DNA of 47,556 nt from Tissierellaceae bacterium (GCA_029257065.1 JARIDA010000009.1:1-47556); one strand, 5' to 3'; positions 564 through 10,458 are shown, counted from the first letter of the stretch. Program-made: numbers and translations. The notes: generated by a model from the letters alone, not told the origin.

Positions 564-1309
564 TAACTCAGCCCTTCCATAATTTTTCTAATAATAAATT
601 GGAATAAATTTGCTAATAAAATTATCATAAAAGTCCAAGCAAATAATTCCCCAGTATTAAGATATAATTTAGAATAGTAAATATTCTCACCTATGGAATT
701 ATTAACTAATCCTAAAACTTCACCAGAAACCCCAGATTTCCAAGCCATGCCAGATGTGACCATTATACTTGGAATTAAGAATTCCTTTAATCCATCCCAA
801 TATAAAAACTTGAAAATGTTTGATCTTTTAGCATTAAATACATGGGCCATTTCTAATAACTTCTTATCCACACTCTTTAAACCAGATATTGAAGAGAAAT
901 ATATATTGGGAAGAGATATAAATAGTACAATGAAAATTGAAAGCTTACTAGAATTTATCCATATTAATAGAACAATTGTTATTGAAGCTATAGGAATAGA
1001 GCTTATTAGATTTATTGGAAGTTGGATAATTGACTCTAATATAGGAAAAAAATAGCTAATTATTCCTAATAGGATTCCTAATAAAATGCTTATTAAAAAT
1101 CCAGTTCCAATATTAACTATAGAATTAAATATACTAATCCAAAAGAATTCTTTTTGAATCAAATTAAAGAAAATCCTTAAAACTTCCCAAGGATTTGGTA
1201 GTAAAATATTATTATCAATTAAATGGGACAATATTGTCCAAAAAGAGATCCAAAAAATAATACTGAATAATTTTCTTTTTAATTTATCTAAAAATACAAA
1301 AGAATCCAT
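563..1309 (-). CDS. ABC transporter permease, NitT/TauT (SsuC-like) family
   Basis: Membrane subunit of the same importer, 248 residues, the usual length for the SsuC/TauC/ThiX group. It has about six hydrophobic segments. The region from about residue 155 to 200 has the character of the EAA coupling loop (a conserved stretch ending in SGVSGEVLG) that docks onto the ATPase. The ATG at 1309 is preceded by a GGAGGG ribosome binding site. It is followed directly by the ATPase gene. The binding-protein gene that should head the operon lies on the same strand but about 1.1 kb upstream, beyond an oppositely oriented reductase gene. The substrate is unknown; aliphatic sulfonates, thiamine precursors or nitrate-type anions are all possible for this family. 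Confidence 0.88.
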   Translation of the reverse strand: MDSFVFLDKLKRKLFSIIFWISFWTILSHLIDNNILLPNPWEVLRIFFNLIQKEFFWISIFNSIVNIGTGFLISILLGILLGIISYFFPILESIIQLPINLISSIPIASITIVLLIWINSSKLSIFIVLFISLPNIYFSSISGLKSVDKKLLEMAHVFNAKRSNIFKFLYWDGLKEFLIPSIMVTSGMAWKSGVSGEVLGLVNNSIGENIYYSKLYLNTGELFAWTFMIILLANLFQFIIRKIMEGLS

Positions 1310-1399
1310 ATAGAACCCTCCAATTCACTATTATTATAACATTAATAATCTAATAATATAGAATTAATGATATAATAATCTTAATTAGGAGGGATACAT

Positions 1400-2410
1400 A
1401 TGAAAAAGAGAATTTTAGGTAGAACTGGATTTGAAGTCTCCATAGTGGGTTTTGGTGGTATACCAATACAAAGAGTAGATGAAGAGCAGGCTTTTAAACT
1501 TTTGCAGGAGGCATATAATCAAGGAATAAATTTTATTGATACTGCAAGAGGATATGAGGAAAGTGAAAATTTAATAGGAAAGGCAATGGAGAAGATAGGT
1601 AGAGAGAAATTTATATTGGCTACAAAGTCTATGGCTCGAACTTATGAAGGAGTTAAAGCAGAATTTGAAAAGAGTATGGCAGATTTGAGAACTAATAGAA
1701 TAGAATTATTTCAATTCCACAATGTAAAAACAGAAGAGGAGTTAGAAATAATATTAAGTGATAAAGGGGCTTTGCGAGCAATTAAAGAATATCAAGAACA
1801 GGGAAAAGTGATTGAAATCGGAATAACCAGCCATAGTGTGGATCTACTGGATAAGGCTATTGATACAGATGAATTTAGTACAATTCAATATCCATATAAT
1901 CCTGTGGAAAGACAGGGTGAAGAGGTGTTTAAAAAGGCAAAAGAGAAAAACTTAGGTATAATAATAATGAAACCCTTAGCAGGTGGAGCTATTGCAAAAG
2001 GTGAACTTTGTCTTAGATTTATATTTGAAAATGAAGATATAACAGTGGCTATTCCAGGAATGGCAAGTGTAGATGAGGTAAAAGAAAATGTAAATGCAGG
2101 TATAAATTACAGACCATTAACAGATTCAGAGCGAGCTGAACTTAAAGAAGAGGTTGATACTTTAGATGGAGAGTTTTGTAGAAGATGTGGATATTGTGCA
2201 CCTTGTACAGTGGGCATAGATATTCCCACACAGTTTTTAATGGAGGGTTATTATTTAAGATATGACTTACAAGATTGGGCTCTTTCCAGATATGAAAAGA
2301 TGGAAAAAACAGCTGGGGATTGTATCCAATGTGGTGAATGTGAGCCAAGATGTCCTTATGATTTACCAATAATGAAAATGCTTAAAAGAGTGGAAAAAAA
2401 CTTAGGATAA
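1400..2410 (+). CDS. Aldo/keto reductase with C-terminal ferredoxin-like Cys clusters
   Basis: Predicted cytoplasmic oxidoreductase, 336 residues. The N-terminal TIM-barrel aldo/keto reductase domain (about 1-250) shows the tetrad D47, Y52, K76 and H107. The C-terminal part has two cysteine groups, C260/C263/C266/C269 and C308/C311/C314/C318, which fit [4Fe-4S] binding. This architecture is common in anaerobes. It suggests electron exchange with an iron-sulfur partner beyond plain NAD(P)H chemistry; the substrate is unknown. The ATG is preceded by AGGAGGG at 1387-1393, and a TATAAT-like -10 lies at 1371-1376. The gene sits head-to-head with the ABC permease and tail-to-tail with the binding-protein gene, so it splits the importer locus. 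Confidence 0.92.
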   Translation: MKKRILGRTGFEVSIVGFGGIPIQRVDEEQAFKLLQEAYNQGINFIDTARGYEESENLIGKAMEKIGREKFILATKSMARTYEGVKAEFEKSMADLRTNRIELFQFHNVKTEEELEIILSDKGALRAIKEYQEQGKVIEIGITSHSVDLLDKAIDTDEFSTIQYPYNPVERQGEEVFKKAKEKNLGIIIMKPLAGGAIAKGELCLRFIFENEDITVAIPGMASVDEVKENVNAGINYRPLTDSERAELKEEVDTLDGEFCRRCGYCAPCTVGIDIPTQFLMEGYYLRYDLQDWALSRYEKMEKTAGDCIQCGECEPRCPYDLPIMKMLKRVEKNLG

Positions 2411-2413
2411 GAA

Positions 2414-2439
2414 AAAAGCTAGGAAATTTCCTAGCTTTT
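2414..2439. terminator. Bidirectional intrinsic terminator between reductase and binding-protein genes
   Basis: A perfect 26-base palindrome: AAAAGCTAGGAAA followed immediately by its reverse complement. A-run and T-run flanks let it act on both strands. It lies between the convergent stops at 2410 and 2444. Confidence 0.85.
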
Positions 2440-2443
2440 AATA

Positions 2444-3436
2444 TTAATAGTAAAAATCTTCTTTTGGAATAGATCCGCCCACTAAATCAGCTTTAAAATT
2501 ATAGAGATTAGTTAGATAGTCCTGTAAAAGACTTTTCATCTCTTCACCCTTTATAAAGCTAATATTACAATTAGGGATTGAGTATTTACCAATTCCTTCA
2601 GGAATTATTCCCATAGATTCAACAATTTCCCCAGTTTTTTCTGGTTCTGTTTTAGCGAACTCCATAGAATCTTCATATTCTTTTAGAAAAATTTCTAAAA
2701 TATCACTATTTTCTTCTAAAAACTCACGTCTTCCAACTAAAACTCCAGTGACCATTGAATTGCCATTATTTAATTTTTCCCATTCTTCATTCATATCAAA
2801 TATAGTTCTAATATCTGGATTTCCCTTTTTAACCACAGAGACAAAAGGTTCTGGAAGCATTGCTATAATGTTACTCTCTGTCTTTAAAAGAGCAGCAATT
2901 TCACTAGCCTCTGATTTATATTCTACTTTAACGTCTTCTAATTGATTACCTTGGATAAAAAGATTTAAAACCCCTTCAGGTGTAATTCCCTTACCAACAG
3001 AGTAAATGGTTTTACCATTTAAATCTTCTATTGAATTAACATTATTGTCGTTTTCAACCATATATAATACGCCAAGAGTATTAATTGAAATTACTTGTAT
3101 ATCTCCTTCACTTTTATTATATAGTGTTGATGCTAGATTAGCAGGGATTGTAGCAAGGTCTGTCTCACCTTTCATAAGTTTTGTAACTACTTCCTCTGCT
3201 AGTCCAAATTGCTCAAAATTATATTCAACTTTGTTATTATCAATTATAAATTCCTCATCGTTATTTTCATGATCATCTATCATTTTGGCTAATCCAATTG
3301 TGGTAGCACCTTTTAGAGAGCTTATTTCAACAGTTTGAACTGATAGATCTTCTTCCACTATTTCATTAGAATTACAGCCAACTAGAACAAATGCACTTAA
3401 AAAAATTAAAAAAATACTTTTAATTGTTTTATTCAT
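2444..3436 (-). CDS. ABC transporter substrate-binding lipoprotein, NitT/TauT-like
   Basis: Extracytoplasmic solute-binding protein, 330 residues, anchored by a lipid: signal sequence 1-20 with lipobox LVGC and acceptor C21. The body has the features of the NMT1/SsuA-like periplasmic binding fold, including GLAEEVVTKLMKGETDLATI and an early domain-closing VGKGITPEGVLN stretch. It most likely serves the permease and ATPase at 1-1309, which share its strand. A transcript from this gene would, however, have to cross the antisense reductase gene and the terminator at 2414-2439, so the two halves may be expressed separately. The ligand cannot be deduced. Confidence 0.85.
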   Translation of the reverse strand: MNKTIKSIFLIFLSAFVLVGCNSNEIVEEDLSVQTVEISSLKGATTIGLAKMIDDHENNDEEFIIDNNKVEYNFEQFGLAEEVVTKLMKGETDLATIPANLASTLYNKSEGDIQVISINTLGVLYMVENDNNVNSIEDLNGKTIYSVGKGITPEGVLNLFIQGNQLEDVKVEYKSEASEIAALLKTESNIIAMLPEPFVSVVKKGNPDIRTIFDMNEEWEKLNNGNSMVTGVLVGRREFLEENSDILEIFLKEYEDSMEFAKTEPEKTGEIVESMGIIPEGIGKYSIPNCNISFIKGEEMKSLLQDYLTNLYNFKADLVGGSIPKEDFYY

Positions 3437-3794
3437 ATGATTCTCCTTTATTTTATAGTATAGGTCAGTTTGAACAAAATTAATGAAGAAATGAGGCTAA
3501 GCCTTCTTAAAGAACTTAGCCACATAGTCTAAATAATAAGCTCTTCAATAGATATCTTCAAAATGTTGGTGGCATTTCAAGTAAATTAGGACTATTATTT
3601 TGTTAATGTTGACTCTAATTTGATAAAATAATTTTGAAGATATCTATTATAATAAAGGCTTTCAAATATCTATTTTAGATTAGTATTGCATCTTAGTCAA
3701 TATGAACTTAAGTTAGATAGATAAATCTTGAAGAAATAAGGATTTAAATATATACTAGTCTATATATGTATAAATATATGGAAAGGACATGATT
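3437..3794. other. Intergenic region of about 358 bases between divergent lipoprotein genes
   Basis: No plausible coding sequence was found. It must hold the promoters of both divergent lipoprotein genes. It also contains a hairpin at 3495-3521 (7-bp stem GGCTAAG/CTTAGCC, with an inner TTCT/AGAA pairing) and a nested inverted repeat at 3547-3648. The minus-strand leader of the binding-protein gene would carry the first hairpin if transcription starts beyond 3521. No known riboswitch core was recognised. Confidence 0.7.
3547..3648. repeat. Nested inverted repeat, 18-bp perfect outer arms
   Basis: AATAGATATCTTCAAAAT at 3547-3564 is matched exactly in reverse complement at 3631-3648. Inside, AAATTAG at 3583-3589 pairs with CTAATTT at 3615-3621. 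The whole element is about 102 bases and is non-coding. It could be a miniature transposon remnant, a structured RNA or a large operator region; the sequence alone does not decide. Confidence 0.75.
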
Positions 3795-4412
3795 ATGAAT
3801 AAAAAGAGAAATTTTAAAAGATATATTTTTTTAGGAGCTTTAATTTTAACATTGAGTTTAACAGGATGTGCGCAAATAAGAGATAAAATAGCTGCTACTA
3901 AAGGAGAATTAGTTGGTAATCATTTTAAAATATCAATATTTGACCACTATGGTAGTAAGACATTGGATATGGATGGGAAAAAAATATCTGTGGCTGTTTT
4001 AAAGGAAAATAGGGATAGTAGTGAGGATGAAGCAAGTTATGATTCCTCTGTTTTAGAAATAACCATAAATGGAAGACAGATGATACAGGTGGGTAATACT
4101 ATGATTTTTGCTGAAGATGGACTTGATATGATAGAAGATTTTCAGATGGATAGTGAGATCCAGGTGGATAGTGGAGGATTTTTAACTCCAGTAGATAGAT
4201 ATATAAATGATATAAAAAACAAGATAGGTAAAGAAAAAACTGTAATACTATCAAGTCCAAAGGGAATACCTATAGGAGTTTTTCAAGGGAAAAAAGTATA
4301 TGCAACAGTTCCTAAAAACTTACCTAAAATGACAAGATTAAATATAGATGGAAAAAGTCTATATATTCATAGAGCTAATTATATGATATTAGATACAGAT
4401 ATAATAAATTAA
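3795..4412 (+). CDS. Putative lipoprotein of unknown function
   Basis: A 205-residue protein with a basic N-terminus, a hydrophobic stretch and lipobox LTGC (acceptor C25 from this start), so it is probably lipid-anchored outside the membrane. The body is mixed alpha/beta in character with no motif I recognise. I chose the ATG at 3795 over the in-frame ATG at 3789 because GAAAGGA ends at 3787, giving a 7-base spacer instead of 1. It is followed after 12 bases by the PhnA-type gene and then by a small membrane protein, so the three may be co-transcribed. Confidence 0.75.
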   Translation: MNKKRNFKRYIFLGALILTLSLTGCAQIRDKIAATKGELVGNHFKISIFDHYGSKTLDMDGKKISVAVLKENRDSSEDEASYDSSVLEITINGRQMIQVGNTMIFAEDGLDMIEDFQMDSEIQVDSGGFLTPVDRYINDIKNKIGKEKTVILSSPKGIPIGVFQGKKVYATVPKNLPKMTRLNIDGKSLYIHRANYMILDTDIIN

Positions 4413-4424
4413 GGAGTGAGTATA

Positions 4425-4775
4425 ATGAATAAAATACCAATTTGTCCAATATGTGATTCCAAATATACATATGAGGATGGCCATTTAATAATATGTCCAG
4501 AGTGTTCTTATGAATGGATACCAGTTTCTGAATCTGAGGAAAAAGAAGAATTAAAGGATGAAAAGATATATAGAGATGCACATGGTGCACAGCTTAAAGA
4601 TGGTGATTCTGTAACTGTAGTAAAAGATTTGAAAATCAAAGGAAGTTCTGAAGTAATTAAGAGGGGTACAAATATAAAGGATATAAAGTTAAAAGATGGA
4701 GATCATGATGTGGATTGTAGAGTTCCAGGAATAGGAAATATGGAGCTGAAATCTGAATTCTTAAAAAAGATTTAA
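4425..4775 (+). CDS. yjdM: PhnA/YjdM-family zinc-ribbon protein
   Basis: A 116-residue cytoplasmic protein. The N-terminal zinc ribbon has C7, C10, C24 and C27 (CPIC and CPEC pairs), followed by the YjdM C-terminal domain with GDSVTVVKDLKIKGSS and a KRGT-type loop. The family is historically called PhnA (alkylphosphonate uptake), but that role is not established and no phosphonate genes are nearby. The ATG at 4425 is served by AAGGAG at 4411-4416; a GTG at 4416 lies within that site and is unlikely to be used. Confidence 0.92.
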   Translation: MNKIPICPICDSKYTYEDGHLIICPECSYEWIPVSESEEKEELKDEKIYRDAHGAQLKDGDSVTVVKDLKIKGSSEVIKRGTNIKDIKLKDGDHDVDCRVPGIGNMELKSEFLKKI

Positions 4776-5131: not shown

Positions 5132-5160
5132 TTGCAAAAGAGATGTTTCAATGTTATGAT
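5132..5160 (+). promoter_or_regulatory. Predicted sigma-A promoter of the cobalamin-riboswitch transcript
   Basis: TTGCAA at 5132-5137, a 17-base spacer and TATGAT at 5155-5160. The implied start near 5167 lies just ahead of the riboswitch, as expected for a leader. Confidence 0.6.
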
Positions 5161-5182
5161 ATTTTTAATTGAATATAGTGTT

Positions 5183-5321
5183 ATACAATACAAGGGAAGT
5201 TGGTTAAAATCCAACACGGTCTCGCCACTGTAGTGAGGAGTGTTTAAAATTATGCCACTGAATAATGATAATTTGGGAAGGCTTTAAACATGATGAATCT
5301 AAGTCAGGATAACTTTTGTAT
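5183..5321 (+). ncRNA. Cobalamin (B12) riboswitch
   Basis: The aptamer shows the hallmark order of the class: AGGGAAGTTGGT, then ATCC, CGCCACTGTA near 5222, a second GCCACTG followed by TTGGGAAGGC, and the B12-box-like AAGTCAGGATAAC at about 5301-5313. ATACAA at 5183 or 5188 can pair with TTGTAT at 5316-5321 to close P1. It precedes a cobalt ECF transporter operon, a classic target. When cobalamin is plentiful the downstream terminators should form. The aptamer is compact, and exact ends are approximate. Confidence 0.93.
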
Positions 5322-5332
5322 GGCAAAAAGGT

Positions 5333-5370
5333 TAAATTAATTCACGATGTATGAATTTAATTTATTTTTT
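5333..5370 (+). terminator. First terminator hairpin of the riboswitch expression platform
   Basis: TAAATTAATTCA (5333-5344) pairs with TGAATTTAATTTA (5352-5364), with one bulged base and a 7-base loop, and is followed by six T residues. It starts only about 12 bases after the riboswitch, so it is well placed as the ligand-controlled terminator. Confidence 0.65.
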
Positions 5371-5432
5371 AATGCTTATATTAAATCTATAATATCCTAG
5401 GATTATATTTTAATAAAGCTGCTAAAAATATT

Positions 5433-5461
5433 AAGTTTATACGAGAGTATAAACTTTTTTT
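5433..5461 (+). terminator. Second intrinsic terminator upstream of the cobalt-transport operon
   Basis: AAGTTTATAC (5433-5442), a GAGA loop and a perfect GTATAAACTT arm (5447-5456) are followed by a T-run. It is stronger-looking than the first hairpin and lies about 65 bases before the lipoprotein ATG. It may be the real regulatory terminator, or a second check after the first. Confidence 0.75.
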
Positions 5462-5527
5462 ATTTAAAAATAAAAAAAGTAATTATAATTCTATATTCTA
5501 AAAAACTTAATATAGGGGGAAAAGAAA

Positions 5528-6070
5528 ATGAAAAGAAGAATGAAAAGTATTTTATTATTAACATTAGTATCGATTTTAGGATTAACATTGGTAGCTTGTG
5601 GTGGAGATAAGCCAGAGGAGCCAGAAATGGTAGCACAGGAAGAACAAGAAGATGAAGATGAGCATACTCATGACGCACCATTTGAGTGGAGAGGTACTTA
5701 TGAATTTGAAGAGGGAGAATACAAGATAAAATTCAATAAAAATGATGGAGATGCACATATGGCAATGGGTTTCTTGAAAACAGATGCTCAAATAGATGAT
5801 TTTGAACATCACGCAGCACATATGATGGATGAAGATTCAGTTATGGAAGATGTTGAGAAAGACGGAATATTCGAAGCAAAACATGAATATGCTTATGAAT
5901 TAGAATTAAATAATGAAACAGCAGAATTTACATTTACAATAGCTGAAGGAGAGTATTATGTATTCACAGAACATTTTCCAGAAGAATTTGATTTAGAAAT
6001 AGTAGATGCAGATGGAAATGTATTAGAAGCAACAGATACAAAAGAATATGATGAGGATTACGAAATTTAA
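5528..6070 (+). CDS. His/acid-rich lipoprotein, putative cobalt-binding partner of the CbiMQO transporter
   Basis: A 180-residue lipoprotein: signal 1-23, lipobox LVAC with acceptor C24. The mature part is strongly acidic and has about eight histidines clustered in EDEHTH, EHHAAHMMDED and a conserved-looking TEHFPEEFDLE segment. This suggests extracytoplasmic binding of divalent metal, cobalt given the context. It is the first gene after the B12 riboswitch and sits 14 bases before cbiM. No standard family name is recognised. A role as a metal collector handing cobalt to CbiM is inference from composition and position. The ATG is preceded by AGGGGGA. Confidence 0.85.
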   Translation: MKRRMKSILLLTLVSILGLTLVACGGDKPEEPEMVAQEEQEDEDEHTHDAPFEWRGTYEFEEGEYKIKFNKNDGDAHMAMGFLKTDAQIDDFEHHAAHMMDEDSVMEDVEKDGIFEAKHEYAYELELNNETAEFTFTIAEGEYYVFTEHFPEEFDLEIVDADGNVLEATDTKEYDEDYEI

Positions 6071-6084
6071 TTGGGAGGTATTTT

Positions 6085-6699
6085 ATGCACTTAGCGGATG
6101 GTGTTTTAAATACACCTGCAGTAGTGGCAACATCAGTTGCAGCAGGTGCTTTAATTATAAATTCTATTAGAAATATAGATAATGAAGAAATACCAAAAAT
6201 AAGTATAATGGCAGCAGCATTTTTTGTATTTGGACTTATGAGCTATCCAGCAGGTCCAAGTACAGTTCATCCATTATTAGGTGGATTACTAGGAATAATG
6301 TTGGGATGGAGAAGTCCTCTGGCCGTCTTTATTGGACTTTTATTGCATGCAGCAATATTTCAACATGGTGGATTTACAACAATAGGAATAAATACATTAA
6401 TTGTTGCCATACCTGCTATAATAGGTCACTTATTTTTCAAGTCGGCAATGAAAAAAGATAGAAGTATCTCGATTAGTGCAGGAATAACTGCAGCTCTTTC
6501 AGTTGCACTTACGGTGGTTATATTATTAACAGTATTAGCAATGGTAAATGAAAACTATAAAGAAATAATATATATATTGGGAATAGGGCATATTCCATTA
6601 TTAATAGCTGAAGGAGTTTTAACGGGTATAGTTGTAAAGTTTTTGAATGATACAAGACCAGAAATCCTCTCTCAATACAATATAAAAAAACAGGTGTGA
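6085..6699 (+). CDS. cbiM: Cobalt ECF transporter S-component CbiM
   Basis: A 204-residue integral membrane protein that binds the metal in an energy-coupling-factor cobalt/nickel transporter. The invariant N-terminus MHLADG supplies the Met1/His2 metal ligands of the family. Further family signatures are GPSTVHPLLGG near residue 55 and FQHGG near residue 93. The CbiM/NikM families overlap in sequence; the cobalamin riboswitch upstream argues for cobalt. The start is certain because the N-terminal His must be residue 2, and GGGAGG precedes it. No cbiN-like gene follows; cbiQ begins 4 bases after the stop. Confidence 0.93.
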   Translation: MHLADGVLNTPAVVATSVAAGALIINSIRNIDNEEIPKISIMAAAFFVFGLMSYPAGPSTVHPLLGGLLGIMLGWRSPLAVFIGLLLHAAIFQHGGFTTIGINTLIVAIPAIIGHLFFKSAMKKDRSISISAGITAALSVALTVVILLTVLAMVNENYKEIIYILGIGHIPLLIAEGVLTGIVVKFLNDTRPEILSQYNIKKQV

Positions 6700-6703
6700 T
6701 TAA

Positions 6704-7462
6704 ATGTTAGAAGATCAGGCATCATTATTAGATAAAACACTTCCACAGATAGATAAAAACTCCTGGATTCATAAATGGGAATCCAGATGTAAAGCAGTAA
6801 CTTGTGTATTATCCATATTTCTAATAGCATCAATGGAGTCACCAATATTACTAATGGGGATTTATTTAACCCTATTAGTAATGGTTTTATCCATGGGATT
6901 GTCAGTGAGAGAACTTATAAGAAGGACGGCTCACTTACTTCCCTTTATAATACTTATGGCTTTACCAATAATTTTAGGTGGAGGATTTCCTTTGAAAAGG
7001 GATAGAATATTATTGGCAACACTTTTAGCTTTAAAGAGTTTGTCAGGTCTATATATAATGTTTATTCTATTTTTTAGCCAATCAATCCCTAAATTATTAA
7101 ATGCATTGTCATATATGAAAATTCCAGATGTGTTTATGAGTATAATGTTTCTGACTTTAAGATACATTTTCATATTAGGTGAAAAACTTAGAAATATGTA
7201 TAAAGCATTGATATCTAGATTATTTAAACCAGCATTGGATAGAAAAACATTTAATGCAATGGGTGGAGTTGTTGGAGGAATATTGATAAAATCATTTGAT
7301 ACCTCAGATATAGTTTATAAAGCTATGATATCTAGAGGTTTTAATGGTAAAATGCCAGTATCTAAACCAGAAGAAATAAAATTGTCAGATCTTCTAAAAA
7401 GTGGAATCATACTAATAGTAATAATATTTATATTGATACTTGAAAGACGGTGGTTTGTATGA
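6704..7462 (+). CDS. cbiQ: ECF transporter transmembrane (T) component CbiQ
   Basis: A 252-residue membrane coupling protein linking CbiM to the ATPase. It has several hydrophobic segments (about 30-50, 60-80, 100-120, 225-245). Two ARG-type motifs in the cytoplasmic domain, SRLFKP near 158 and MISRGF near 210, contact the ATPase grooves in this family. The ATG is at 6704, with AGGTG just before it. Its last bases overlap the cbiO start (ATGA), a sign of tight translational coupling. The length is normal. Confidence 0.92.
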   Translation: MLEDQASLLDKTLPQIDKNSWIHKWESRCKAVTCVLSIFLIASMESPILLMGIYLTLLVMVLSMGLSVRELIRRTAHLLPFIILMALPIILGGGFPLKRDRILLATLLALKSLSGLYIMFILFFSQSIPKLLNALSYMKIPDVFMSIMFLTLRYIFILGEKLRNMYKALISRLFKPALDRKTFNAMGGVVGGILIKSFDTSDIVYKAMISRGFNGKMPVSKPEEIKLSDLLKSGIILIVIIFILILERRWFV

Positions 7463-8262
7463 AAGAGATAGATATAAAGAACTTGAAATACACATATCCA
7501 GATGGGACACTAGCAATAGATGACATGTCCATGAATATAAAGGGAGCAAAAAAAGTTGCAATTTTAGGTTCTAATGGTAGTGGTAAGTCCACATTACTTC
7601 AGCATTTAAATGGTTTAATTCTGCCTCAAGTGGGAAATATATCTATAAATGGAAGAATAATAAAAAAAGAAAATTTAGAAGAGATTAGAAAAACTGTAGG
7701 ATATGTTTTTGATAATCCAGATGATCAATTATTTTCTACTACAGTTTATGAAGATATTGCTTTTGGTCCTAGAAATTTACTTTATGATGAAAAAAAAGTT
7801 TCCAAAACACTGGATAGAGTAATGGACTTAGTCAATATAAGAGAGCTTAAGGATAAACAGCCTCATAATCTCAGTCTAGGCCAAAAGAGAAAAGTTGCCA
7901 TAGCTGGAGTATTAGCTATGGAGCCAGAAATAATGATATTAGATGAGCCTTTTTCTGGTTTAGACCCAATTTCATTGGATCAGTTTTTAGAAATTTTTAA
8001 TAGATTACATGAATTAGGTCACACATTAATAGTAACTACTCATGATGTGGATATAGCCTATGCATGGGCAGATGAGTTTATACTACTAAATGAGGGGAAA
8101 TTAATAGCTCATGGAGATATTACACTATTAGAAAATAGGGAAATAATATCTAAGGCAAATTTAAATCTTCCCACTATATATGAAATATTTGAGGAGTTTG
8201 ATTTAAAAATAAGATCTAAAAAACAGGCAAAAGAGTATATAAAAATGTTGATTAATAGATAG
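7459..8262 (+). CDS. cbiO: ECF transporter ATP-binding protein CbiO
   Basis: ATPase of the cobalt transporter, 267 residues. Walker A GSNGSGKST is at 36-44, the Q-loop region is FDNPDDQLF, the signature is LSLGQKRK, Walker B is IMILDEPFSGLD and the switch histidine is in TTHDVD. The FDNPDDQLF pattern is typical of ECF-type ATPases. With one ATPase gene, the complex would use a CbiO homodimer. I chose the ATG at 7459, which overlaps the cbiQ stop, over the upstream GTG at 7450. Confidence 0.93.
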   Translation: MKEIDIKNLKYTYPDGTLAIDDMSMNIKGAKKVAILGSNGSGKSTLLQHLNGLILPQVGNISINGRIIKKENLEEIRKTVGYVFDNPDDQLFSTTVYEDIAFGPRNLLYDEKKVSKTLDRVMDLVNIRELKDKQPHNLSLGQKRKVAIAGVLAMEPEIMILDEPFSGLDPISLDQFLEIFNRLHELGHTLIVTTHDVDIAYAWADEFILLNEGKLIAHGDITLLENREIISKANLNLPTIYEIFEEFDLKIRSKKQAKEYIKMLINR

Positions 8263-8271
8263 GGTGATTTT

Positions 8272-8670
8272 GTGAAAAAATTAAAAAGTTTTAAAGTATT
8301 ATTAATGATAATGATATTAGTTATAGGAGTAAATACAGGAACTTATGCACATAAAATGATTATAAACCCAATAGAAGAGGGGAAAATTAGAGTTGAATAT
8401 GATGGTGGGAATCCAGCAACTAGATCTAAAATAAGTGTTTATAACTCAGAAGATGAGTTAGTTGATGAAGGAGATGTGGATGAAGACGGAGTTTTCCAAT
8501 ATGATCAAAAAGAAACAGCTTATTTAGTAGCTGATGATGGAATGGGTCATAAGGATACTTGGGAAGCAGGTTCAAATGTGGAATCTTCAGATGGATCAAA
8601 ATTGCCTAAAATAGCAGCAGTTGTAGTGGTTTTAGGAGCAGTTGCTTTATTTTTTAGCAAAAAAAAGTAA
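8272..8670 (+). CDS. NikL/CbiL-like membrane-anchored accessory protein of the cobalt transporter
   Basis: A 132-residue exported protein. It has a signal peptide with likely cleavage after TYA (about residue 26), so the mature chain starts with His; a small beta-sandwich, carboxypeptidase-regulatory-like domain (DGGNPATRSKISVYNSEDEL... DEDGVFQYD) follows; and one C-terminal membrane anchor (about 112-128) ends in a basic tail. This is the layout of the NikL-type extra component of NikMLQO transporters, which replaces NikN/CbiN in some systems. The GTG start has AGGGTG upstream. It is the last gene of the operon, before a terminator. Confidence 0.78.
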   Translation: MKKLKSFKVLLMIMILVIGVNTGTYAHKMIINPIEEGKIRVEYDGGNPATRSKISVYNSEDELVDEGDVDEDGVFQYDQKETAYLVADDGMGHKDTWEAGSNVESSDGSKLPKIAAVVVVLGAVALFFSKKK

Positions 8671-8701: not shown

Positions 8702-8728
8702 AAAAGCACTTATTTAAGTGCTTTTTTT
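8702..8728 (+). terminator. Intrinsic terminator of the cobalt-transport operon
   Basis: AAAAGCACTT (8702-8711), loop ATTT, AAGTGCTTTT (8716-8725), then T residues: a perfect 10-bp stem. Confidence 0.9.
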
Positions 8729-8738
8729 ATATTTATTT

Positions 8739-8808: not shown

Positions 8809-10458
8809 GTGAGTACTTATTTTATACCAATAAAAACCGCAGTTATATTTTTTCCTTTTTTAGCATTGATTTTGACAATTCCATTTTTAATATTTCAATA
8901 TAGAAAATATGGATATATTAATAAAATAAGATTGGTAGTGGTTTTCTCTTTTTTATTTTATTTGATATCCGCCTATTATATGGTAATATTACCTTTACCG
9001 AAAACAAGAGATGTTAAAAGTGTTCAAAGAGATGATATAGAATATACAAATCTGAAACCATTTAAATTTGTAGAAGATATAAAAAGAAATACGACGGCAG
9101 AAATAGAGGATCCAACTAGTTATAAGTATTTATTTACTGAAAGAGAATTTTTACAAGCCATATTTAATGTGCTATTAACTCTACCACTTGGGATATATCT
9201 TAGATATTATTTTGGAAGAGGGTTAATCGCAACAATTTTAATAAGTTTTACAGCCTCCATTTTCTTTGAATTAACTCAATTCAGTGGTCTATATGGAATA
9301 TATAATGCACCTTATAGGGTTTTGGATATAGATGATTTAATTTTAAATACATTGGGAGGCACTATAGGATTTATATCAGCTCCAATTTTTACCTTCTTCT
9401 TACCAAAAGCTGATGAATTAGATGAAAATGTGGAGTTAGAAACGATGAGGGTTGGATTTCCAAGAAGATTACTGGCATTTACAATAGATATGCTAATAAT
9501 GAGTTTTATTCCCTACTATAAATTGGATTTTAGAGTGAAATACGTATCTTTTTTTGTATATTTTATCCTAATAGCTTATATTACAAATGGCAGAACCGTA
9601 GGTCATTGGATTACTAATACAAAAATTCAGGGAAAAGGGGACAGAATTGGTTTTTTTGAAATATTTTTAAGAAATGGAATATTATTCTTTGGAATAATTG
9701 GGCTAAATAGATTGCTTGGAAATTTAATAATTTTAGATCAACAATTAGACCTATACTCTATGGCTCTATTTATAGCATTATTTCAAGTGGCATATATTAT
9801 ATATTTAATAGGAGACCTTATATATGCATTATTTCAAAAGGATAGATTCTTTTATGAAAGGCTTAGTAATACTAGAATAGGGATTTATGAGGAAAAAATA
9901 GGAAAAGAAGATAGAGATGGAGAAAAATATATGGAAAAGAGAGATAATATGAAATTTAGAAAATCTGAATATGAAGATATTGATAATATATTAGAAATAA
10001 TTGAAGAGGGAAAAGTATCTTTGAAAAAAGCTCAAGTTCCACAGTGGATTGATGGATACCCGAATAGAGAAACAATTATGGAGGATATTGATAAAGGATA
10101 TTCATATGTTCTCACTAATAATGATGAAATAGTAGGAACTGCAGCTCTTATATATGGGGTGGAAGAGACTTATAAGGAAATTTTCCAAGGAGAATGGTTG
10201 TCTGAATTAGAAGAATATGCTATTCTGCATAGAGTTGCCATAAAAGAGAGTGAAAAAGGTAAATCTTTGGCAGTTAGAATAATGGAATTTGTCCAAGAGG
10301 ATGCTAAAGGCAAAGGGATGGCAAGTATTAGAATTGACACCCATAGAAAAAATAAATCTATGAAAAAAATGATTGAGAAGTCAGGATTTGAATATTGTGG
10401 GATAATATATTTGGAAGATGGATCAGAGAGAATAGCTTTTGAAAAGCTTATAAAATAA
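8809..10458 (+). CDS. VanZ-like / RDD membrane protein fused to a GNAT acetyltransferase
   Basis: A 549-residue three-part protein. Residues 1-200 form a VanZ-like membrane domain (four to five segments, with FFELTQ and DIDDLILNTLGGTIGF typical of VanZ). Residues about 212-365 resemble an RDD domain (FPRRLLAFTIDMLI, TNGRTVGHWITNTKIQ). After a charged linker, residues about 380-549 form a GNAT N-acetyltransferase domain (HRVAIKESEKGKSLAVRIM as the CoA-binding region, then a KKMIEKSGFEYCG ending). VanZ-RDD fusions are known in Firmicutes; the acetyltransferase makes this one unusual. The GTG start follows GGAGGAG. An in-frame ATG at 9931 with GGAG 8 bases upstream could make the GNAT domain alone. 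Substrates are unknown. Confidence 0.82.
   Translation: MSTYFIPIKTAVIFFPFLALILTIPFLIFQYRKYGYINKIRLVVVFSFLFYLISAYYMVILPLPKTRDVKSVQRDDIEYTNLKPFKFVEDIKRNTTAEIEDPTSYKYLFTEREFLQAIFNVLLTLPLGIYLRYYFGRGLIATILISFTASIFFELTQFSGLYGIYNAPYRVLDIDDLILNTLGGTIGFISAPIFTFFLPKADELDENVELETMRVGFPRRLLAFTIDMLIMSFIPYYKLDFRVKYVSFFVYFILIAYITNGRTVGHWITNTKIQGKGDRIGFFEIFLRNGILFFGIIGLNRLLGNLIILDQQLDLYSMALFIALFQVAYIIYLIGDLIYALFQKDRFFYERLSNTRIGIYEEKIGKEDRDGEKYMEKRDNMKFRKSEYEDIDNILEIIEEGKVSLKKAQVPQWIDGYPNRETIMEDIDKGYSYVLTNNDEIVGTAALIYGVEETYKEIFQGEWLSELEEYAILHRVAIKESEKGKSLAVRIMEFVQEDAKGKGMASIRIDTHRKNKSMKKMIEKSGFEYCGIIYLEDGSERIAFEKLIK

Follow-up and report, generated by a model that had tools for sequence, protein, structure and literature searches.

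What does a His- and acid-rich lipoprotein do as the first product of a cobalt-uptake operon? To our knowledge, little is understood of how trace cobalt is acquired by ECF transporters that have no soluble binding protein. Extracytoplasmic helpers that collect metal are already known (ZinT, NikK, AztD), and ZinT aids zinc SBPs. We have addressed the question in the window, which is the whole stretch of DNA that was analyzed (47,556 nucleotides from a Tissierellaceae bacterium). The operon has the following features:

5169-5334, plus strand: cobalamin (B12) riboswitch aptamer (Rfam RF00174, 67.7 bits, E = 1.1e-14)
~5434-5461, plus strand: hairpin and U-tract, probable riboswitch-controlled terminator (from folding)
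5528-6070, plus strand: His/acid-rich lipoprotein, gene 1 of the operon (ORF; lipobox LVAC)
5663-6040, plus strand: shared domain, lipoprotein residues 46-171 (profile matches in several host types; AlphaFold2 model)
5807-5821, plus strand: H94xxxH98 motif, predicted helical (conservation in the lipoprotein group; helix in the model)
5969-5989, plus strand: EHxPxEF motif (E148, H149, P151, E153, F154), found in most members of the domain family
6085-6699, plus strand: CbiM, ECF substrate-binding membrane component, a short form starting MHLADG (PF01891, 162 bits)
6704-7462, plus strand: CbiQ, ECF transmembrane (T) component (PF02361, 99.6 bits)
7459-8262, plus strand: CbiO, ECF ATPase (PF00005, ABC_tran, 112 bits; TIGR04521, 260 bits)
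8272-8670, plus strand: NikL-like protein with a signal peptide, His27 at the mature N-terminus and a C-terminal membrane anchor (NF058648)
about 8702-8732, plus strand: intrinsic terminator of the operon, 3' of the nikL-like gene (10-pair stem and T-tract)

The riboswitch scored above the RF00174 gathering score (31.5 bits). Between the aptamer and the first gene, positions 5425-5466 folded at -10.9 kcal/mol (z -5.1), and the hairpin at 5434-5461 would be under the control of the aptamer. With the order riboswitch, lipoprotein, cbiM, cbiQ, cbiO and nikL-like gene, the operon is complete, and the assignment of the lipoprotein to a cobalt-uptake operon is well supported. The first-pass annotation had described the locus as a B12-controlled cobalt ECF operon, a description borne out by the RF00174 match together with the Pfam matches of CbiM, CbiQ and CbiO. 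Directly upstream of the operon lie genes for a DUF5052 lipoprotein (3789-4412) and a PhnA/YjdM zinc-ribbon protein (4416-4775). Elsewhere in the window, positions 8809-10458 hold a single ORF of 549 aa with an unusual combination of VanZ-like, RDD-like and GNAT acetyltransferase domains.

The product of the first gene had been characterized earlier as an exported lipoprotein with about eight His and many acidic residues, and counting agreed with this: behind the LVAC lipobox, the mature protein (157 aa) contains 8 His, 52 Asp/Glu and 9 Lys/Arg. Its sequence gave no usable match in Pfam, NCBIfam, PHROGs or PDB searches, and its domain of ~125 residues matched neither a Pfam or NCBIfam family nor a solved structure. 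ZinT (PF09223) and DUF4198 (PF10670) were ruled out as homologues of the lipoprotein, the Pfam search being without a match to either. The literature covered, which was the open-access PMC text, holds no description of the domain family. The suggestion that the lipoprotein would be a new step in cobalt capture stood in part: the idea of such a helper has the precedents named above (ZinT, NikK, AztD), whereas neither the protein family nor its wide distribution appears to have a name in the family libraries covered (Pfam and NCBIfam).

In agreement with the earlier claim that CbiN is absent, the host genome assembly (92% complete) gave no match to CbiN (PF02553), and it gave none to DUF4198 (PF10670), which we take to be NikK. 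The CbiM of the window is the only one found in this genome. The last gene of the operon scored 42.9 bits (E = 5e-11) against the NCBIfam model NF058648 "NikL family," below its curated cut-off of 100; judged by its sequence, the protein is a distant NikL relative. A26-H27 and G92-H93 were invariant over 12 homologues, His27 being the predicted mature N-terminus, and this residue together with the second invariant His, His93, suggests a metal site in NikL itself. The proposal that a NikL-like protein is present instead of CbiN was right as to the presence of one and the absence of the other, but the locus is better read as having the lipoprotein, in the NikK slot, plus NikL, and not NikL alone. 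The host genome also has B12-synthesis-like genes (cbiB-, cbiL- and cobD-like, named by sequence inspection) that adjoin another B12 riboswitch, so the host has a use for cobalt.

Within the family to which the host belongs, two designs of CbiM were found. CbiN was present at 12 of 12 CbiM loci starting MHIMEG or MHVMEG after a signal sequence, and the lipoprotein and NikL were present at 3 of 3 loci starting MHLADG without a signal sequence. This split, and the presence of both designs in one genome (G001), supported that the lipoprotein/NikL pair and CbiN are alternatives. Like CbiMNQO systems, the window has CbiM, CbiQ and CbiO in one operon and a B12 riboswitch; unlike them, it comes from a genome in which no CbiN was found, and its CbiM is short and starts directly with MHLADG. 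NikKMLQO systems, in which NikN is replaced by NikK and NikL, include some that are B12-riboswitch-linked and predicted to be cobalt transporters (PMC2667541). The likeness here is that M, Q and O are accompanied by NikL and an extra extracytoplasmic protein and that the N component is missing; in the reported cobalt cases it extends to the riboswitch. The differences are that the protein in the window is a lipoprotein, carries another conserved motif and does not match DUF4198, to which the genome gave no match either. The window is best read as a NikK-M-L-Q-O-like design, with the lipoprotein standing in the slot of NikK. At three NikL loci (L143, L144 and L145), the slot before cbiM is held by another His-rich lipoprotein (HGDHWHG...DGDHHALG; positions 45-572, 2586-3059 and 40-561, respectively) with no Pfam match, and at L123 and L124 this HGDHWHG/DGDHHALG lipoprotein is fused to the shared domain. 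A further NikL locus, L148, has a DUF4198 (NikK) protein nearby.

We have then surveyed the neighborhoods of stand-alone homologues in Bacillota genomes, which were searched with the protein sequence as the sole query and without use of the neighboring genes. For 16 of 18 homologues (the copies in the window, at L116-L124 and at L127-L132), a cbiM, nikL or cbiO gene is no more than 3 kb away; they represent seven families, kinship being handled only by naming these. The chance expectation within this distance is ~0.5%, by our own estimate from one or two cbiM genes per ~2 Mb genome. A B12 riboswitch was found within 3 kb of 11 of the 18, in several cases directly 5' of lipoprotein-cbiM-nikL, and three loci (L117, L119 and L120) have two riboswitches, one before cbiQO and the other before lipoprotein-cbiM-nikL. 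The two exceptions located away from metal genes are a short copy adjoining glycogen genes (L125, genome G746) and the copy of genome G187 (L126). Hence, the vicinity of cbiM/nikM and B12 riboswitches, for which the first-pass annotation had proposed a check, was found; given the two counts, the contrary outcome that it had named, homologues lying mainly away from metal-transport genes, did not occur.

The domain occurs well outside cobalt ECF systems, which the first-pass annotation had missed: it is present also in SBPs for zinc, in GTPases of the COG0523 group and in further metal proteins. A pairwise BLAST network and profile matches linked the family across its hosts (ZnuA, CobW/COG0523, CbiM, RcnA-like and stand-alone lipoproteins), which belong to several bacterial phyla and to haloarchaea. 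Insertions in ZnuA-type SBPs were found in the host's own genome (L003/L133), in its order (L101-L104, where the genes adjoin ZinT and znuBC-like genes), in G315/G242 and on a Halorubrum megaplasmid. In the alignment of L030 with YcdH (2o1e), residues 33-127 corresponded to 22-118 and residues 260-448 to 116-300, which places the domain precisely at the His-rich loop of ZnuA, before the DPHxWL motif. COG0523/CobW GTPases carry it between PF02492 and PF07683 in most of the 66 loci that a pattern scan gave (from Chloroflexota, Planctomycetota, Acidobacteriota, Verrucomicrobiota, Pseudomonadota and Spirochaetota), counts that are tilted to CobW hosts and are not frequencies because of the two patterns used for the scan (EH[FH]P[ESD]EF[DS] and [DE][ALQ]PFEW[RSG]G[TEI]; three-row alignment). 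Among the loci examined, genes for ZnuA, ZinT, ZIP, ZrgA and Fur occur near some of the domain-bearing CobW genes. The insert is also carried by the CbiM of Alkaliphilus peptidifermentans (L036) and by an Alicyclobacillus membrane protein (L035/L023), which we label RcnA-like from its sequence and neighboring genes, no family model having given a name; on one plasmid, it adjoins cation-transporter/metal-exporter and metal-regulator genes.

His-rich flanks accompany the domain in most hosts, most strongly in the RcnA-like host, L021, L034 and L036, and are missing from the inserts that ZnuA proteins carry in the host's own order. In a tree of 50 domains, these last inserts clustered with the cobalt-linked lipoproteins (support 96/96), and the ZnuA label was gained or lost at least three times on well-supported branches, changes that we read as three separate insertions of the domain. 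A metal role of the domain is supported mainly by its fusion to unrelated metal proteins; found as an insert in such proteins for zinc, cobalt and nickel, it probably serves bacteria and archaea as a reusable, general module for gathering metal.

AlphaFold2 predicted a beta-sandwich with one main helix, with a pLDDT of 86.7 for the lipoprotein and 93.5 for a CobW insert; over the domain region of the lipoprotein model, block pLDDT was mostly 88-98. Family-wide (50 sequences), H149 (86%), P151 (78%) and E153 (84%) of EHxPxEF are conserved, as is an early E-W. Among the 18 lipoproteins, H94 and H98 reach 77% and 94%, respectively, both lying on the predicted helix. This HxxxH is not conserved in the inserts, in which position 98 is mostly Leu (CobW) or commonly Glu (ZnuA). 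In the host's order, the inserts in ZnuA lack H98 and have lost much of EHxPxEF, so the latter is not essential in every context. Fold searches with two models returned no significant match to a solved structure. The best plausible hit was the collagen-binding (PPC-like) domain of the ColG collagenase (1nqj; probability 0.85, E = 0.13, 3.1 Å over 97 columns, TM below 0.5), a weakly similar beta-sandwich. A firm claim of a PPC fold was dropped, as neither search was significant and 1nqj was unsupported with the second model.

Among known systems, a parallel is offered by ZinT (PF09223) and by AdcA, whose C-terminal domain is ZinT-like: these helpers recruit metal either as a free protein or as part of a zinc SBP. 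In AdcA, both a His-rich loop and the ZinT-like domain help zinc recruitment (PMC7858048). The ZinT-like domain sits at the AdcA C-terminus, whereas the domain family of the window sits inside the His-rich loop, and a separate ZinT gene adjoins the domain-fused SBP. The His-rich loops of ZnuA and the His stretches of COG0523 proteins occupy a similar place in the host proteins (PMC2770081); those are flexible, whereas here a folded domain of ~125 residues replaces or accompanies the stretch. The lipoprotein most likely works like ZinT or NikK while being related to neither.

We propose that, when B12 is scarce, the riboswitch would permit transcription of the operon, and that the lipoprotein, lipid-anchored outside the membrane, would gather Co2+ (perhaps also Ni2+ or Zn2+) by means of its His/acid-rich arm and of a putative site around the EHxPxEF loop and the helical HxxxH. 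It would raise the local Co2+ at CbiM/NikL, through which the ECF transporter is entered, or hand Co2+ to this pair, filling the slot that NikK has in NikKMLQO systems, and CbiQ and CbiO would then drive uptake. To this whole reading, a B12-controlled, membrane-anchored Co2+ collector feeding CbiM/NikL of the ECF transporter, we assign a probability of roughly 0.6. We infer metal binding from the conservation of His and acidic residues and from the nature of the host proteins; its site, the metal bound and the transfer to CbiM/NikL are putative as well, and the proposed ligands may lie apart in space.

The same conserved features could be read otherwise. The domain might be a docking or assembly module whose ligand is a partner protein (CbiM/NikL, the ZnuBC permease or a CobW client), the His-rich arms alone binding metal. 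Such a role would be compatible with a beta-sandwich core whose weak fold neighbors are mostly binding modules (collagen- and carbohydrate-binding), with aromatic and proline residues among the most conserved features, and with the position of the His-rich stretches, which in many hosts is outside the core. However, H149, E148 and E153 of the core are conserved, and in the cobalt-linked group H94 and H98 too, which metal ligation fits better; we regard docking as unlikely, though worth keeping in mind. A lipoprotein that buffers or sequesters surface metal for protection or storage, without feeding the transporter, could likewise be His/acid-rich, and the RcnA-like host type, which adjoins cation-transporter and metal-regulator genes, would suit it. 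Control by a B12 riboswitch argues for expression alongside the importer when cobalamin is short, and the domain occurs mostly in uptake proteins or at uptake loci, so that buffering appears improbable.

The location of the gene in G110/G145, flanked on one side by a gene resembling B12-dependent ribonucleotide reductase and on the other by an ABC transporter of the Peripla_BP_2 type (siderophore/B12 class), would be suggestive of the binding of a metal complex (chelated cobalt, corrinoid or metallophore) and not of the free ion. The ZnuA, CbiM and COG0523 hosts handle ions, though, and no ligand-binding pocket family was matched, which leaves little room for this explanation. That the gene is a chance neighbor with no part in cobalt uptake could be argued from the 2 of 18 homologues found elsewhere, but it is contradicted by the survey, in which 16 of 18, in seven families, compare with ~0.5% by chance, and we find it barely credible.

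The Co2+ collector is thus our preferred reading of the lipoprotein. For the domain at large, we put forward, tentatively and leaning somewhat against it as a whole, a general metal-relay module on zinc, cobalt and nickel importers, COG0523 chaperones and exporters, with a fold unlike known metallochaperones, a metal preference given by exchangeable ligands (HxxxH in the cobalt group), and a move between cobalt and zinc within one order. A purely extracytoplasmic collecting role misfits some hosts because the CobW copies are cytoplasmic. The recurrence of the lipoprotein in the CbiN/NikK slot and of the domain in ZnuA, COG0523 and CbiM offers one testable metal-collection module across unrelated systems, as well as an annotation handle for proteins unnamed by Pfam and NCBIfam.

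The collected loci also gave some separate observations. At L039, L041, L046, L047, L054, L065 and L090, in distant phyla, the CobW gene with the domain is followed, or overlapped at its end, by a gene for a WD40-repeat-like protein (by inspection). At L065, a single ORF (1301-3619) near the domain-bearing CobW combines ZnuA with two ZinT matches. On an Alkalihalophilus pseudofirmus plasmid (L020, 6001-6358), a copy of the domain is disrupted by frame changes.
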